DNA of 64,000 bases from Actinomycetota bacterium (lineage in GTDB: Bacteria > Actinomycetota > Actinomycetes > S36-B12 > UBA5976), in NCBI GenBank assembly GCA_009698575.1, contig WLPX01000001.1, positions 314,924-378,923 on the forward strand, in the 5' to 3' direction. Shown here one piece after another: positions 14,637 to 63,697 of this stretch. The translations under genes were made by a program, and so were the position numbers. The notes under the pieces were generated by a model. It made no database searches. It was not told the DNA's origin and saw only the letters and a program-made list of their open reading frames with translations. The stretch's first letter is position 1; each line of letters begins with the position of its first letter.

Positions 14637-15245
14637 TCAGGGACTTACTTGGCGCCGGCCTTCAAAAGCTCGGCCGAGAGTAACTTCGTCGGCATATTCC
14701 AAATCGCCACCGACTGGTAAACCTGATGCCAGTCGCGTGACTTTAATTCCTAGGGGTGAAATTAGCCGTGTTAAGTAAGTGGCTGTTGCTTCACCTTCGA
14801 GGTTGGGATCAGTTGCCAAGATGATTTCAGTGATAGCACCATCAGCCAATCGAGTCATCAATTCCGTGACTCGCAGGTCATCGGGACCAATTCCATCAAT
14901 TGGACTGATTGCTCCACCTAGGACGTGATAGCGCCCCCGAAATTCCCGAGTACGTTCAACGGCCAAAACATCCTTTGGTTCTTCAACTACACAAATCGCG
15001 GAACCGTCTCGACGGGTGTCGGCACAGATTCGACATAACTCATCTTGGGCAACGTTATAACAAACGCGGCAAAATCTAATTTTTTCTTTTACTTCCGCCA
15101 ACACTGTGGCCAATTTAGTTACATCGACGCTATCTGTAGCCAATAAATGAAAAGCGATACGCGTTGCACCTTTTGGTCCAACACCTGGAAGTTTGGCAAG
15201 TTCATCAATCAAATCTTGCACGATGCCTTCGTACATATTGCTCAT
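14637..15245 (-). CDS. recR: Recombination mediator RecR
   Basis: RecFOR-pathway protein that helps load RecA at gaps. Residues about 1-50 hold the helix-hairpin-helix segment ([24 protein letters not shown]). A four-cysteine zinc finger follows ([16 protein letters not shown]), then a Toprim domain ([16 protein letters not shown]) and the closing Walker-like segment. The length of about 200 is normal. Its ATG at 15245 overlaps the dnaX stop by 4 bases. An ATG three codons later (15236) gives the more usual [10 protein letters not shown] start and may be the real one. Confidence 0.95.
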
Positions 15246-17017
15246 GCTTCGCGAGAACTCTCACTAATAACTTGGCCGCCAAGTGAACTGGTAATTATAT
15301 CTATTGAGGAACGCGCTGGCAGATTTTCATCTTCGGGTGAAGCATCACCGGAATCTGTTGCGGCTGCTTTCTTTGGCTTGGCAGCAACAGCGCGATTCGG
15401 ATCGACGGTTGGATCAATAGTTACATCAGCGTGAAACAGTTTTGAAATAACAAGTCGCAGGCGATCATCATGTCCACTCTTAACGGCGTTGTTCATAGTG
15501 TTCACATTTGCAAATGCAACTGCCAAAACTTTGTCTTCACCATAAGAAAGTGGCGCAGTATCGGCCATAACAATTCCAGCAACACGACTTTGACTGCCCA
15601 TGGTCTGCAAAATAGTTGGCCAGGCATCACGGATTTGTTCGAAAGTTAACGGGCCAGTCAAAATTTTTGGCGATTCCGCTTCAGCGTCTGCTGCTTGTTG
15701 CGCGGCTACAGCGGTGACTTGTGATGGTTTCAAGGGTGCTGGAGTCGTTGAAACTTTTGGCCGTGGTGGTGGAGTTGCCTTTGCAGGCGCAGCAGGAGTT
15801 TCTTCGGAAGATGTTTGTGGCTGTTCGGCTACTATCCGTGGCCGAGCTGGTGCGGCGGCGGACGTTCGTGGCTCACCTTGTTCTAATTTTTCAACTCGAG
15901 TAATCAAGTCTTGGGTAACTTCATTGGTAACTAGACGAGCTGCAAGTAATTCCAGTTGTAAACGTGGTGAAGCTGCCCCGCGTAGTTCAGATAGCCCAGA
16001 ACTTACTAAGTCAGCGACTCGAACCAGTTGCGCTGGCGTAAACAGCTTGCCTTGCGCAACTAAATCATCAATTTGCTCGTTTGGAATTTCGAAGATGCCA
16101 GAACTTGCTGCATCGGGTACTTGAGTTACTACAACCAAATCGCGCAAGTGATCCAACAAGTCATTAGCAAATCGACGCGGTTCGTGGCCGGATGTAATAA
16201 TTTGTTCGATCAAAGTAAATAGTTCGGCGCCATTGCCTTGGGCAATCGCCACTACAACTTGGCTTAGCAAAGTTTCATCGGTGAAACCGAGTTGGGCCAC
16301 CGTATCCGCGTAGGTAACGCCTTCGGGTCCGGACCCGGCAATGACTTGGCCCAGCACAGATTGCGCATCGCGAACTGAACCAGCCCCCGCGCGTGCAACT
16401 AATGCAAGTGCGGCAGGGTCGGCAACTATGCCTTCACGTTCACACATCAATGCCATATGTTGCGCCAAAGTTTTTGCCGACACCAATCGGAATGGATAGT
16501 GATGTGTACGCGAGCGCAAAGTTGGAATGATCTTGTCCGGTTCAGTTGTTGCAAAAATAAATCGTAGATGCGGTGGTGGCTCTTCAACTAATTTCAATAA
16601 AACATTGAATGCATCACGGGTTAGCTGATGTGCCTCATCGATGATATAAACCTTGAATCGAGCACTAACCGGTGCATACACAGCACGCTCACGCAGCTCT
16701 TTGGCATCGTCAATACCGCGATAGGTTGCCGCATCAATTTCAATAACGTCCATTGAACCTGGGCCATTGGGTGCCAAATCAACACAGGATTGGCAGACAC
16801 CACAAGGATTTGAGGTTGGGCCTTGTTCGCAATTCATGGATCGAGCCATGATTCGAGCCGAAGAAGTCTTGCCACACCCACGTGGACCAGTGAATAGATA
16901 CGCGTGGTGAATTCGGTCAGTATCTAACGCTCTCGAAAGTGGAACTGTGACATGTTCTTGCCCGATTACGTCAGAAAACTGACCAGGTCGGTACTTTCGG
17001 TATAGGGCCAAGGACAT
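15242..17017 (-). CDS. dnaX: DNA polymerase III subunit gamma/tau
   Basis: Clamp-loader ATPase of 591 residues. The AAA+ core occupies about 1-360, with Walker [10 protein letters not shown], a four-Cys zinc module ([16 protein letters not shown]), DEAH as IIDEAHQLT and the SRC-like sensor region. A Pro/Ala-rich linker runs about 375-455. A C-terminal tail domain (about 458-538; [15 protein letters not shown] to HADVTIDP) resembles the polymerase-binding tau end. I see no slippery frameshift site, so a single product is likely. It is followed by recR with a 4 bp overlap. Confidence 0.96.
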
Positions 17018-60617: not shown

Positions 60618-61316
60618 ATGATCACCTCACTGACCGAAGTTGCCGACGCCGAAGCCTTAGTGGCCAAATTTGTAAGTGGCCTAAGCAGTGACGAAGTTGC
60701 TGCTGAATCATTACTTCCTGATTGGTCTCGGGGTCACGTGCTATCACATTTGGCAAATAATGCGCGCGGGCTAAACAACTTGGTCGAGTGGGCACTAACT
60801 GGCGTGCAAAAAGATATGTATGTTTCAGTTGAACAGCGCGCAATTGACATTGAAAATGATGCTGCGCGTGATGGCCAGGCAATCGTGGCTGACTTCTTGG
60901 AGCAAACGAAAGTCTTGGCTGCCAATTTAGAAAAAATGGTGGCTGGGCCGTTATTGGCCGAAGAAGTTGTCTTGGGTAACGGATCTCACGTCCATCCTCA
61001 TGAGATTACGACACTGCGGGAACGTGAGCTGTTAGTTCACTTAGTGGACTTAGGCCTTGATTACACATCAGAAGATTGGACCTTCCCCTTTTCCATCAAA
61101 ACACTCAAAAGTGTGAGTAATGGCAAGCGCAAGGAACCTGTTAGCTTCCGTCTTTTAATTGCTGGTGACCACACCTGGACTGGCGATCAAAACGCAATGA
61201 TGGACATCTTTGGATCTCCGCAAGATTTAGCTGCTTGGCTGATGGGACGAGAACCGGTTGGAAAATTGACTACCTCTGACGGTACCGCGCTAGGCAAACC
61301 ACCCAAGTGGCTTTAA
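60618..61316 (+). CDS. Mycothiol-dependent maleylpyruvate isomerase-family protein (DinB-fold)
   Basis: The 232-residue product has LLPDWSRGHVLSHLANNARGLNNLVEWALTG, the four-helix metal-binding block. His in HVLSHL and the later GSHVHPHEITTLRERELLVHLVDLGL fit the three His/Asp ligands of the family. These enzymes use mycothiol to transfer or isomerise small molecules, so the gene points to mycothiol metabolism. ATG 60618 is chosen because MITSLTEVADAEAL matches the family start; an in-frame extension overlaps the APC gene. Confidence 0.85.
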   Translation: MITSLTEVADAEALVAKFVSGLSSDEVAAESLLPDWSRGHVLSHLANNARGLNNLVEWALTGVQKDMYVSVEQRAIDIENDAARDGQAIVADFLEQTKVLAANLEKMVAGPLLAEEVVLGNGSHVHPHEITTLRERELLVHLVDLGLDYTSEDWTFPFSIKTLKSVSNGKRKEPVSFRLLIAGDHTWTGDQNAMMDIFGSPQDLAAWLMGREPVGKLTTSDGTALGKPPKWL

Positions 61317-61349: not shown

Positions 61350-61562
61350 ATGTCTGAAGAAACTCCTAGTATCACAATCCGACCAAATGGTTCGTTGCGA
61401 GTTAAGGGCGCAACTCTTATCGGCGCAGATGGCAACGTCATTACCGACAAAGACACATACTCACTTTGTCGATGTGGGCACTCAAAAGACAAACCATTTT
61501 GTGATGGCTCACATCGAGAATGTGGTTTTGAAGATTTGGGCGAACACGCCCCAGTTGAGTAA
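61350..61562 (+). CDS. CDGSH iron-sulfur protein
   Basis: The 70-residue product binds one 2Fe-2S cluster by Cys40, Cys42, Cys51 and His55 (CRCGHSKDKPFCDGSH), the signature of mitoNEET-like small proteins. The first 35 residues are a short beta start (PSITIRPNGSLRVKGATLIG). Its stop overlaps the start of the next gene by one base (TAATG), so the two are coupled. Role in electron transfer or cluster delivery is inferred from family. Confidence 0.93.
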   Translation: MSEETPSITIRPNGSLRVKGATLIGADGNVITDKDTYSLCRCGHSKDKPFCDGSHRECGFEDLGEHAPVE

Positions 61563-61822
61563 TGGAACTACTTGAGTTAAAAGGTGTCTGGAATGATGTT
61601 CTAGATGAACTCGAAGCAACAAATCGAATTGCTTGGCTGGCATTTTTTGATGCGCGATTAGCGAAACTGGAAAATCAAGTTTTAACTTTAGATTTCTCTG
61701 ATGCTTCCAAGTTCCAAGATGGCCATGATTTGAAAAGCACAGTCTCAAGTAGCACTTACGAGGCGTTGCTCATTGCCATTAAAAAGGTGACCGGACTGAG
61801 TCTGACTCTGGAATTTTGTTAG
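61562..61822 (+). CDS. Small protein resembling the DnaX (tau) C-terminal domain
   Basis: The 86-residue product has no signal peptide. By eye it aligns with residues about 458-538 of DnaX in this window: W-x3-L, then R-[IV]-A 12 residues after the Trp in both. After a one-residue gap come VL-x-[LV]-x-F and a closing amphipathic helix and strand (LLIAIKKVTGLSLTLEF versus [17 protein letters not shown]). It lacks the ATPase. Function unknown; coupling to the CDGSH gene is the only context. Similarity may be fold-level only. Confidence 0.6.
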   Translation: MELLELKGVWNDVLDELEATNRIAWLAFFDARLAKLENQVLTLDFSDASKFQDGHDLKSTVSSSTYEALLIAIKKVTGLSLTLEFC

Positions 61823-62032: not shown

Positions 62033-63697
62033 CTACTTAATGTCCATAACTAAAAAGGTGTGTTTGTAAGACTTTGATTTAGGAAGCTTCCCTTTTTTCT
62101 TTGGTTCTTGGATTTTTATTGTAACTTTACAGCTTCCAGATTTTAGCGTCTTGAGTTTTCCTTTTGAAACCTTGCAAATCTTTTTAGAACTTGAGGCAAC
62201 TTTTAAAGACACTTTTGCTTTTGATGTACGTGTGACACTTACTGCAGTTGCGATTGACTTTGCGGCATATGACGTACGAACGTAGATAGTATGTGCGACT
62301 CTGTCCGCGGTTATTTTCTGGTCTTCAAATTCGCGTGCAACCGTGAAGCCATTCCACTTGTCATCCGTCAAAGTAAATCCAGTCGCAGTGAATGAGACGT
62401 GAGCGGCTGGGCTTGCGCCGATGTTTGCGAAAGCTCGAGTTTCTACTGTTGGGGCATTTCCTAAGAAGGTAACATTTGTCAAGCTCCCCGCCCATTCAAA
62501 TGCAGCGATGCCAATACTAGTAACTCCGTATGGAATTTCTATGCTGGCAAGACTGTAGGTGCTATTGAAAGCACTGGCCAAAATAGTTGTGAGTTTACTG
62601 CCTGATTCAAAAGTTACCGATACCAAATTGAGACAATCACTAAATCCGCGAACATCTACAGACGTGACACTATTTGGAATTGTGACTGAGGTTATCAGAA
62701 CATTGCTATAAAAAGCGTTGACTCCGATAGAAGTGACTCCGGATGGAATAACTGCTTCACCTGCGCAAGTTGAATTTAATTCTGCTACTACATTTCCTGT
62801 GATCAAGAAGTACCCATCAGTGCTACAACTAATGCCGCCCGATCCTGTGCCTTCTGAATATGATGCAATCCACTTGGCATAAAGGGTGAGGTCACTTGCG
62901 GTACTTGGCGTAAACGGGAAAGTGATTGGCGTTCCCCCGTCAGAATCTGACCATCCAGCAAATGTATATCCAGATAGCGTTGGTCGACTTGGTGCTGCGG
63001 TGATTGCACCGCCCGAGATAAATGAATTGGGTGTTACAGCCGAACCGCTTTTGGAGTCGTAAGTCGCTGTATAAACGCCAACTTCCGTTGTAAGGCCGTT
63101 CCAATCACCGCCAACGACTCCAAAACCAGTTGCGGTTCTCTTTATATATGCCTTCGCGCCGGCAGCCACCCCATAGAATCCAACGGAACCAAGAACCGTT
63201 GGTGCAGCGTCGCTAAAGAAGTAAACGCTGTCTAGTGAACTCGTCCCATAAAACGCACCATCTAGGAGGGTGACCGGAGTGCTTGTACCAGCAAATGTCA
63301 CAGTTTTCAGGGAAGTTGCTCGATTAAAAGCGCTTACGCCAATGGTCGTTACACCTGCAGGGATGGTGATTGCAACAAGTGAGGTTGCTCCATAGAACGC
63401 ACCATTGTCAATGATTTGAAGAGAGCTCGTGCCAGCAAATGTCACAGTTTGAAGCGAAGTTGCTGCATTAAACGCACTGTTGCGGATCGAGGTTACTCCG
63501 GATGGAATAACTGCGTCTCCAGTACAACTTGTATTACCAGTTACAACGTTTGACGCGATTGTGAAGTAACCAGTAGTACATTCAACGGTTCCACTACCTG
63601 TGCCCGCGTCGTAGGTACCAACTGCATTTGCTGGACTTAACCCAATGCCTGACAGAACTAAAGCGATTGTTGTTATGAGTATTGAAATCCGGCGCAT
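62033..63697 (-). CDS. Secreted BspA-like leucine-rich-repeat protein with InlB-type repeat
   Basis: The 554-residue product has a signal peptide (ITTIALVLSGIGLSPANA). LRR_5 repeats (AFNAATSLQTVTFAGTSSL and AFYGATSLVAITIPAGVTTIG) cover two blocks (about 45-190 and 315-430). A Listeria-Bacteroides/InlB B-repeat sits between them (YDSKSGSAVTPNSF to GYTFAGWSDSDGGTPITFPF to LYAKW). The C-terminal region (about 455-554) is Lys-rich with an Ig-like look (KAKVSLKVASSSKKICKVSKGKLKTLKSGSCKVTI). Probably a surface adhesin or peptide-binding protein. The gap on its 3' side (61823-62032) holds a small palindrome and no gene I would support. Confidence 0.85.
   Translation of the reverse strand: MRRISILITTIALVLSGIGLSPANAVGTYDAGTGSGTVECTTGYFTIASNVVTGNTSCTGDAVIPSGVTSIRNSAFNAATSLQTVTFAGTSSLQIIDNGAFYGATSLVAITIPAGVTTIGVSAFNRATSLKTVTFAGTSTPVTLLDGAFYGTSSLDSVYFFSDAAPTVLGSVGFYGVAAGAKAYIKRTATGFGVVGGDWNGLTTEVGVYTATYDSKSGSAVTPNSFISGGAITAAPSRPTLSGYTFAGWSDSDGGTPITFPFTPSTASDLTLYAKWIASYSEGTGSGGISCSTDGYFLITGNVVAELNSTCAGEAVIPSGVTSIGVNAFYSNVLITSVTIPNSVTSVDVRGFSDCLNLVSVTFESGSKLTTILASAFNSTYSLASIEIPYGVTSIGIAAFEWAGSLTNVTFLGNAPTVETRAFANIGASPAAHVSFTATGFTLTDDKWNGFTVAREFEDQKITADRVAHTIYVRTSYAAKSIATAVSVTRTSKAKVSLKVASSSKKICKVSKGKLKTLKSGSCKVTIKIQEPKKKGKLPKSKSYKHTFLVMDIK

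Follow-up and report, generated by a model that had tools for sequence, protein, structure and literature searches.

Within the window, by which we mean the whole 64,000-nucleotide (nt) stretch of DNA analyzed here, an open reading frame (ORF) at positions 61562 to 61822 on the plus strand encodes an 86-residue protein (9.65 kDa; computed pI 4.5) that is almost certainly a free-standing paralog of the C-terminal domain of DnaX, the tau subunit of DNA polymerase III. It directly follows a gene for a 70-residue CDGSH iron-sulfur protein (61350 to 61562, plus strand; zf-CDGSH, E = 1.9e-16), and upstream of this pair lies a gene for a mycothiol-dependent maleylpyruvate isomerase family protein (60618 to 61316, plus strand). 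The two reading frames meet in the sequence TAATG at 61560 to 61564, where the stop codon of the CDGSH gene and the start codon of the paralog have one base in common. The window also contains an intact dnaX gene (15242 to 17017, minus strand). Its 591-residue product has a C-terminal globular domain (15386 to 15652, minus strand) that is homologous to the 86-residue protein, with 21% identity in the alignment, and a distal tail (15245 to 15319, minus strand) with an L/F/M-G-A/G motif near its end.

A preliminary description of this locus had claimed that the 86-residue product matches the C-terminal region of DnaX in the spacing of its motifs. The protein reads W10-N-D-V-L14, R22-I-A, and V40-L-T-L-D-F45, after which a helix and then a strand close the chain in our second AlphaFold model. 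DnaX from the same window has W-P-T-I-L, R-V-A 12 residues past the Trp, and VLAVAF after one extra residue. The motifs are thus found in both proteins, and the profile homology described below exceeds that of shuffled alignments, which bears out the claim. The ORF itself is a real gene under purifying selection. Among 55 pairs drawn from 11 orthologs, the median dN/dS was 0.094, calculated from the 32 pairs with usable dS (the other 23 were left out, with dS saturated or out of range). Six residues (W10, L14, W25, D30, R32, and D47) are invariant across an alignment of 44 free-standing members. When frame length is counted from the first start codon, 28 of 40 paralogs have 85 to 95 residues, nine have 99 to 130, and three have 329 to 371, the last group likely reflecting an early start in a GC-rich frame.

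To compare the two protein groups, we aligned profiles with hhalign. The 44 free-standing members matched 26 DnaX C termini with a probability of 97.6%, an E value of 2.6e-12, and a score of 65.0 over 80 columns; the highest score among 100 column-shuffled controls was 15.8. These 26 C termini came from full-length proteins found with the window DnaX, which were aligned whole before the domain column range was cut out, and the set was chosen regardless of resemblance to the free-standing protein. An earlier comparison had given an E value of 2.4e-23, which was biased in that the DnaX alignment had been picked with the free-standing profile, and 2.6e-12 is the unbiased figure. The match to DnaX of family f27 alone was weaker (probability, 86.9; E = 4.2e-6; score, 34.9). 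The NCBIfam DnaX model NF005848 matched the window protein at an E value of 8.8e-5 and 43 of the 44 family members at E values up to 0.1 (best, 4e-7). The Pfam DnaX_C model fell below its gathering cutoff on the window protein (13.8 versus 26.2 bits; E = 0.057) and reached 29 of the 44 members at E values up to 0.1 (best, 0.0012). A search with the family profile returned two classes of matches, small frames with E values below about 1e-19 and others between 1e-12 and 1e-3, mostly in frames of 560 to 940 residues; all 20 of the weaker matches that we fetched were DnaX when compared with the window DnaX (E = 8.8e-39 or better). By these profile comparisons, the free-standing protein and the DnaX (tau) C-terminal globular domain are homologous, well beyond what chance would produce.

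The free-standing proteins also have features of their own. Nine positions (F29, D30, R32, L33, D44, F45, D47, K50, and H55) are at least 89% conserved among the 44 members and are different or variable in the 26 DnaX proteins. For K50 and H55, the distinction hinges on how the sequences are aligned, as K and H also occur nearby in some DnaX proteins of the same order (e.g., NKINNARASGHD). The residues with which E. coli tau contacts the polymerase fingers map near positions 17 to 22 and about 51 to 55, a correspondence that was counted by hand from an hhalign alignment of 2% probability and offers a hint at most. A second Trp, at position 25, is kept in 44 of 44 aligned free-standing proteins and in 16 of 20 other full-length DnaX proteins. 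It is lost (to G, H, or A) in six of the seven DnaX tails from the genus of the window (window positions 15386 to 15652 and L182 to L187); L123 keeps the Trp.

We next asked whether DnaX remains whole in genomes with the paralog. Searching with the window DnaX, we recovered the full-length protein from 26 of 30 genomes; the four dropped were G422 (truncated), G383 (partial), and G024 and G452 (not recovered whole). All 26 proteins keep the C-terminal globular domain (E = 1.9e-15 or better), and 24 of the 26 genomes also carry the free-standing gene, G008 and G019 being without it. On the strength of these 26 proteins, we rejected a splitting of DnaX. By pattern, all 26 DnaX proteins also have a tail with the L/F/M-G-A/G motif, mostly of the type S/T-G-x-x-L-L-x-x-E-L-G-A. 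This distal motif was found in none of 40 free-standing proteins. Most of these end at the last strand, and the median extension beyond the end of the profile is 0 residues, with two proteins extending by 10 and 26 residues (n = 40).

Phylogenetic analysis of 44 free-standing sequences together with 61 DnaX domains supports a single origin of the paralog. All free-standing sequences lie on one side of a branch with support values of 93/93, which recurred in 94% of 200 bootstrap trees. In the tree as drawn, with an arbitrary root and built from only 96 columns, the free-standing rows fall among the DnaX proteins of their own order, and deeper forks are weak; at least two genomes are represented twice among the 61 DnaX rows (L208/L122 and L110/L165), and one row is an unconfirmed frame (L177). 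Most probably, the DnaX tail domain was duplicated once, within this order or close to it. Two DnaX domains from genus g6 of the same family, f1 (L117 and L118), join the free-standing clade (96/90), and none of the five g6 genomes in the order search has a free-standing copy. Genus g6 could be either the donor lineage or one in which the domain was put back into DnaX, or its placement could be a long-branch effect.

Taking a match below 1e-19 to define a carrier, we found the paralog in 60 of 393 genomes in a search across the class and in 31 of 118 genomes in a search across the order. All of these carriers belong to families f1, f6, f7, and f27, which span two orders, and the f6 carriers in these samples are confined to genera g27 and g135. 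Within the genus of the window, 13 of 23 genomes carry the paralog. It is absent from the near-complete genomes G002, G008, and G019 of that genus and is thus not essential there. In family f27, whose genomes are small and which looks to us like the acI freshwater lineage (Nanopelagicaceae), 136 of 151 genomes gave a match; in one of these, the match is just a fragment located at the end of a contig. Among the f27 genomes of good quality, 89 of 95 matched. The copy in one f27 genome, G879, contains an internal TAA, and G383 and G895 have two paralog copies each. Near relatives of the window protein also occur in three named records, metagenome-assembled genomes titled Actinobacteria bacterium, Actinomycetales bacterium (from a pond sample), and Bifidobacterium breve. 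The paralog in the last of these (L021; CAMBGF010000006.1) is 87% identical to that of the window, and the species label may be wrong.

In a wider search of 396 genomes from the phylum, 17 matched besides the window's genome, 16 of them in DnaX frames of 430 to 1,043 residues; this sample yielded no carrier from f7 or f27 either and so says little about distribution. The 17th match, L177 in genome G561, is a 183-residue frame that was not recognized as DnaX and yet is nearly identical to DnaX of the same genus, where L173 has the stretch inside a 643-residue DnaX. L177 could represent a disrupted dnaX, an artifact of the contig, or a further case of a detached tail. No match at an E value of 1e-9 or less was found in 66 and 199 genomes of two other classes, searches run without a positive control. 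The window protein had no match among 50,697 phage records, and two scans of viral contigs found none. PADLOC and PHROGs gave only single-member matches (three families, best E = 0.0024, and four families, best 0.039, respectively). On these results, we rejected a phage or defense origin.

The preliminary description had also pointed to the TAATG coupling with an Fe-S protein gene. The coupling is present in the window, and a CDGSH gene lies next to the paralog in 11 of the 13 carriers of this genus, eight with the one-base overlap and three with a 16-nt gap. In the other two, the paralog follows what appears by eye to be a kynureninase-like gene. Outside the genus, CDGSH genes were found in 0 of 38 loci; among the 40 loci that we drew, two have one, both from this genus. 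Three g2 genomes have both genes on different contigs, with the CDGSH gene overlapping an ilvC-like gene (read by eye). Among five genomes of the genus with a CDGSH gene and no paralog, a menD-like gene (read by eye) precedes the CDGSH gene in four (G004, G008, G011, and G019) but not in G002. In the carrier G020, the CDGSH gene also follows a menD-like gene, apart from the paralog. The coupling is therefore a feature of one genus, and we rejected a functional link to an Fe-S protein as a general rule. In eight of the 11 loci of the CDGSH type, the next gene downstream is CapA-like (by Pfam on one member). At the place where those eight loci have the CapA-like gene, the window has a gene for a BspA-type leucine-rich-repeat protein with a List_Bact_rpt domain (62033 to 63697, minus strand).

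Other lineages have other neighbors. In f27, a gene for a secreted GH25 muramidase-like protein lies directly downstream in 18 of 20 drawn loci, 16 of them with a 4-nt overlap, and a LuxR-type response regulator gene lies upstream in 10 of the 20; both assignments come from Pfam on one member each, with gene starts taken as first start codons. The GH25 coupling (L066 to L085; e.g., L081, 6035 to 7599) is more regular than the CDGSH coupling. In f6, the paralog sits between genes for a phosphopantetheinyl transferase and an xthA-like nuclease. The neighbors that could be named across lineages include GH25, CDGSH, CapA-like, xthA-like nuclease, UbiA-type, NhaA, and der genes. None is common to all lineages, and no clamp-loader, polymerase, or helicase gene was recognized among the identified neighbors in the 40 drawn loci, so gene context gives no clue to function. 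That the paralog is translationally coupled to different partners is consistent with genome compactness.

To look for structural relatives, we predicted the fold with AlphaFold. Model 1, built from four close sequences without a DnaX row, had a pLDDT of 69.5 and no strands, and fold searches with it gave no useful match. Model 2, in which the window DnaX domain was added as a fifth row, had a mean pLDDT of 84.5, a pTM of 0.74, and an alpha-alpha-beta-beta-alpha-beta topology. The first seven Foldseek matches to model 2 comprised two chains of 4tps (probabilities, 0.99 and 0.97), E. coli tau (5fku, 0.97; 2aya, 0.93; 5fkv, 0.89), and PaaK1 and NusA2; no E value was below 0.05 for model 2, and none was 0.001 or less for either model. 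The 4tps structure is SirA with DnaA domain I, and we take chain B, judging from its length, to be the DnaA part. With VIA-align, model 2 matched 4tps_B best (Z = 9.1, 2.5 Å, 78 residues) and also matched DciA (7ykm, Z = 5.8, 2.7 Å, 69 residues; 8a3v, Z = 5.7, 2.8 Å, 72 residues) and E. coli tau (5fku_E, Z = 5.4, and 2aya, Z = 5.1; 2.9 Å and 70 residues each). Ribosomal, Der, NusA2, and RbfA chains scored 5 to 6.3, equal to or above tau and DciA, and a Z score below 8 may mean only a common arrangement. From this model with its one DnaX row, we infer a pseudo-KH fold like that of DnaA domain I, tau domain V, and DciA. In the structural comparison with the tau domain that had been proposed as a check on the initial claim, the tau-like topology was seen with the DnaX row (5fku_E, Z = 5.4) and not without it (no strands). 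A search of PDB sequences with the protein or its profile found nothing related, and hhalign against the single E. coli tau sequence gave a probability of 0.9%, at the level of controls. The pseudo-KH fold is common to several families, so that the fold alone cannot name the nearest relative; the sequence points to DnaX.

What might such a protein do? The explanation that we favor, and to which we give roughly an even chance, is that of an adaptor acting in trans at the replisome, a tau domain without its tail that docks through a new conserved face. In this view, a single detachment of the globular C-terminal domain of DnaX gave rise to a separate, mostly acidic protein of some 86 residues. 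The protein retains the hydrophobic core of the domain (W10, V13, L14, R22, W25, L69, and G78) but has lost its connection to the clamp-loader ATPase as well as the distal peptide, which in E. coli is tau's anchor to polymerase alpha. It has acquired a nearly invariant face of its own, placed in the beta-hairpin and the following loop (F29, D30, R32, L33, D44, F45, D47, K50, and H55). This globular face could dock on a replication protein, candidates being the fingers region of alpha, DnaX itself, and the helicase, and docking might modulate assembly or release, although the polymerase would not be tethered in the way that tau tethers it. Its fold matches include adaptors of replication (DnaA domain I, DciA, and tau). 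Our data show the homology, the conservation, the missing tail, and the new conserved positions, and the tree supports one origin; the fold, for which one DnaX row was needed, the location at the replisome, the partner, and the effect are inferred.

The main rival is that this tau-derived pseudo-KH domain works outside replication, for example in the cell envelope or in signaling, with its partner on the new face. The 18 of 20 f27 loci with a GH25 gene directly after the paralog, the 10 of 20 in which it follows a LuxR-type regulator, and the CapA-like gene of 8 of 11 CDGSH-type loci would suit such a role, as would the strong turnover of residues relative to DnaX on one face and the lack of recognized replication neighbors in the drawn loci. 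These neighbors, however, vary by lineage (xthA-like, nhaA, UbiA-type, and der genes elsewhere), with no one process shared, and the relatives by sequence ancestry, namely, DnaX, work in replication. We consider a function outside replication somewhat unlikely.

Less probable is the proposal of the preliminary description that the protein is a detached polymerase-binding module, possibly a regulator or competitor of the clamp loader. In favor of competition with tau for binding to alpha are the homology to the tau C-terminal domain and the contacts that the globular part of E. coli tau makes with the polymerase fingers, through residues 530 to 535 and 562 to 566, as described at 8 Å (PMC4703070). 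The same paper places the polymerase-binding portion of E. coli tau in its last 23 residues, and another reports that E. coli tau lacking its last 25 residues has negligible alpha binding (PMC11470591). Since the distal tail present in 26 of 26 DnaX proteins is missing from the free-standing protein, a simple competitor of tau for alpha is, by analogy with E. coli, unlikely, and competition of this kind seems to us improbable. What stands of the proposal is a free-standing homolog of the DnaX domain, and a regulatory role is possible; a detached polymerase-binding module that competes with the clamp loader is not supported, with DnaX intact in 26 of 26 full-length proteins and the tail motif in 0 of 40 free-standing ones. 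If actinobacterial DnaX works like that of E. coli, the main anchor is out and contact through the globular part could still occur. Carrying E. coli findings to actinobacteria is risky, as the E. coli and Taq tau C-terminal domains are described as having no homology and binding the polymerase differently (PMC4703070).

Weaker still is a role like that of DnaA domain I or the DciA N-terminal domain, which would make the protein a helicase-loading or initiation adaptor docking on DnaB. The best fold match, 4tps_B, which we have taken as DnaA domain I (Z = 9.1, 2.5 Å, 78 residues), and the DciA matches (Z = 5.8 and 5.7) speak for it. Against it, hhalign with sequences from relatives gave only 0.7% for DnaA domain I (8 sequences; score, 13.5, no better than controls) and 0.5% for DciA (25 sequences), so that neither ancestry is supported by sequence. 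Moreover, 37 of 40 relatives have DciA, so that this role is already filled. We regard this alternative as very improbable. Finally, although the ORF is short and overlaps another gene, and one paralog copy in one f27 genome has an internal TAA, a spurious ORF or a decaying DnaX fragment is ruled out with near certainty by conservation over 44 aligned members, a dN/dS of about 0.09, and a single clade spanning two orders.

A bolder version of the replisome adaptor, which we advance only tentatively and think rather unlikely in its full form, is a small diffusible tau domain without a tail that engages the replicative polymerase or clamp loader solely by globular contact and thereby controls how polymerase is released or exchanged at the fork. 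If this were true, and if f27 is the acI lineage as we presume, it would be a previously unknown replisome component of some of the most abundant freshwater bacteria. Retention in 136 of 151 genomes of a small-genome family suggests that a separate soluble factor is needed in nature. The paralog would also offer a small, expressible handle on the role of the globular part of tau apart from the alpha-binding tail. Domains like tau domain V had been described within DnaX and, reportedly, within PolC; we found no account of a free-standing DnaX tail domain or paralog in the open-access literature.

Among known systems, the closest by sequence is the C-terminal domain of actinobacterial DnaX (PF20964; NCBIfam PRK07764 models), with which common ancestry is detectable over about 80 columns. 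The shared core consists of W10, V/I13, L/I14, R22, and L69, and W25 and G78 are shared with only part of DnaX. In contrast to DnaX, the 86-residue protein is free-standing, has no clamp-loader ATPase domains and no distal tail, and is longer in the stretch that follows strand 2. Domain V of E. coli tau (2AYA and 5FKU) resembles the predicted pseudo-KH fold of model 2 (Z = 5.1 to 5.4, 2.9 Å, 70 residues) but differs in having no sequence similarity by hhalign to its single sequence (0.9%) and in that alpha is bound mainly by the tail after the domain. The N-terminal domains of PolC are reportedly related to tau domain V (said to be the work of Timinskas and Venclovas in 2011); by that report, they are another example of a tau-V-like domain outside DnaX, but one that is part of a polymerase. 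The PolC N terminus has been described as a proposed clamp-loader contact (PMC3919608).

The closest match to model 2 by fold is DnaA domain I, which differs from our protein in having no sequence link to it (0.7%) and in being part of a larger protein. DnaA domain I is an adaptor that docks partners, and HdaB of Caulobacter is a stand-alone protein related to it. HdaB thus represents the same evolutionary step, in which an adaptor domain of replication is made free-standing, but in another phylum and with DnaA, not DnaX, as its source.
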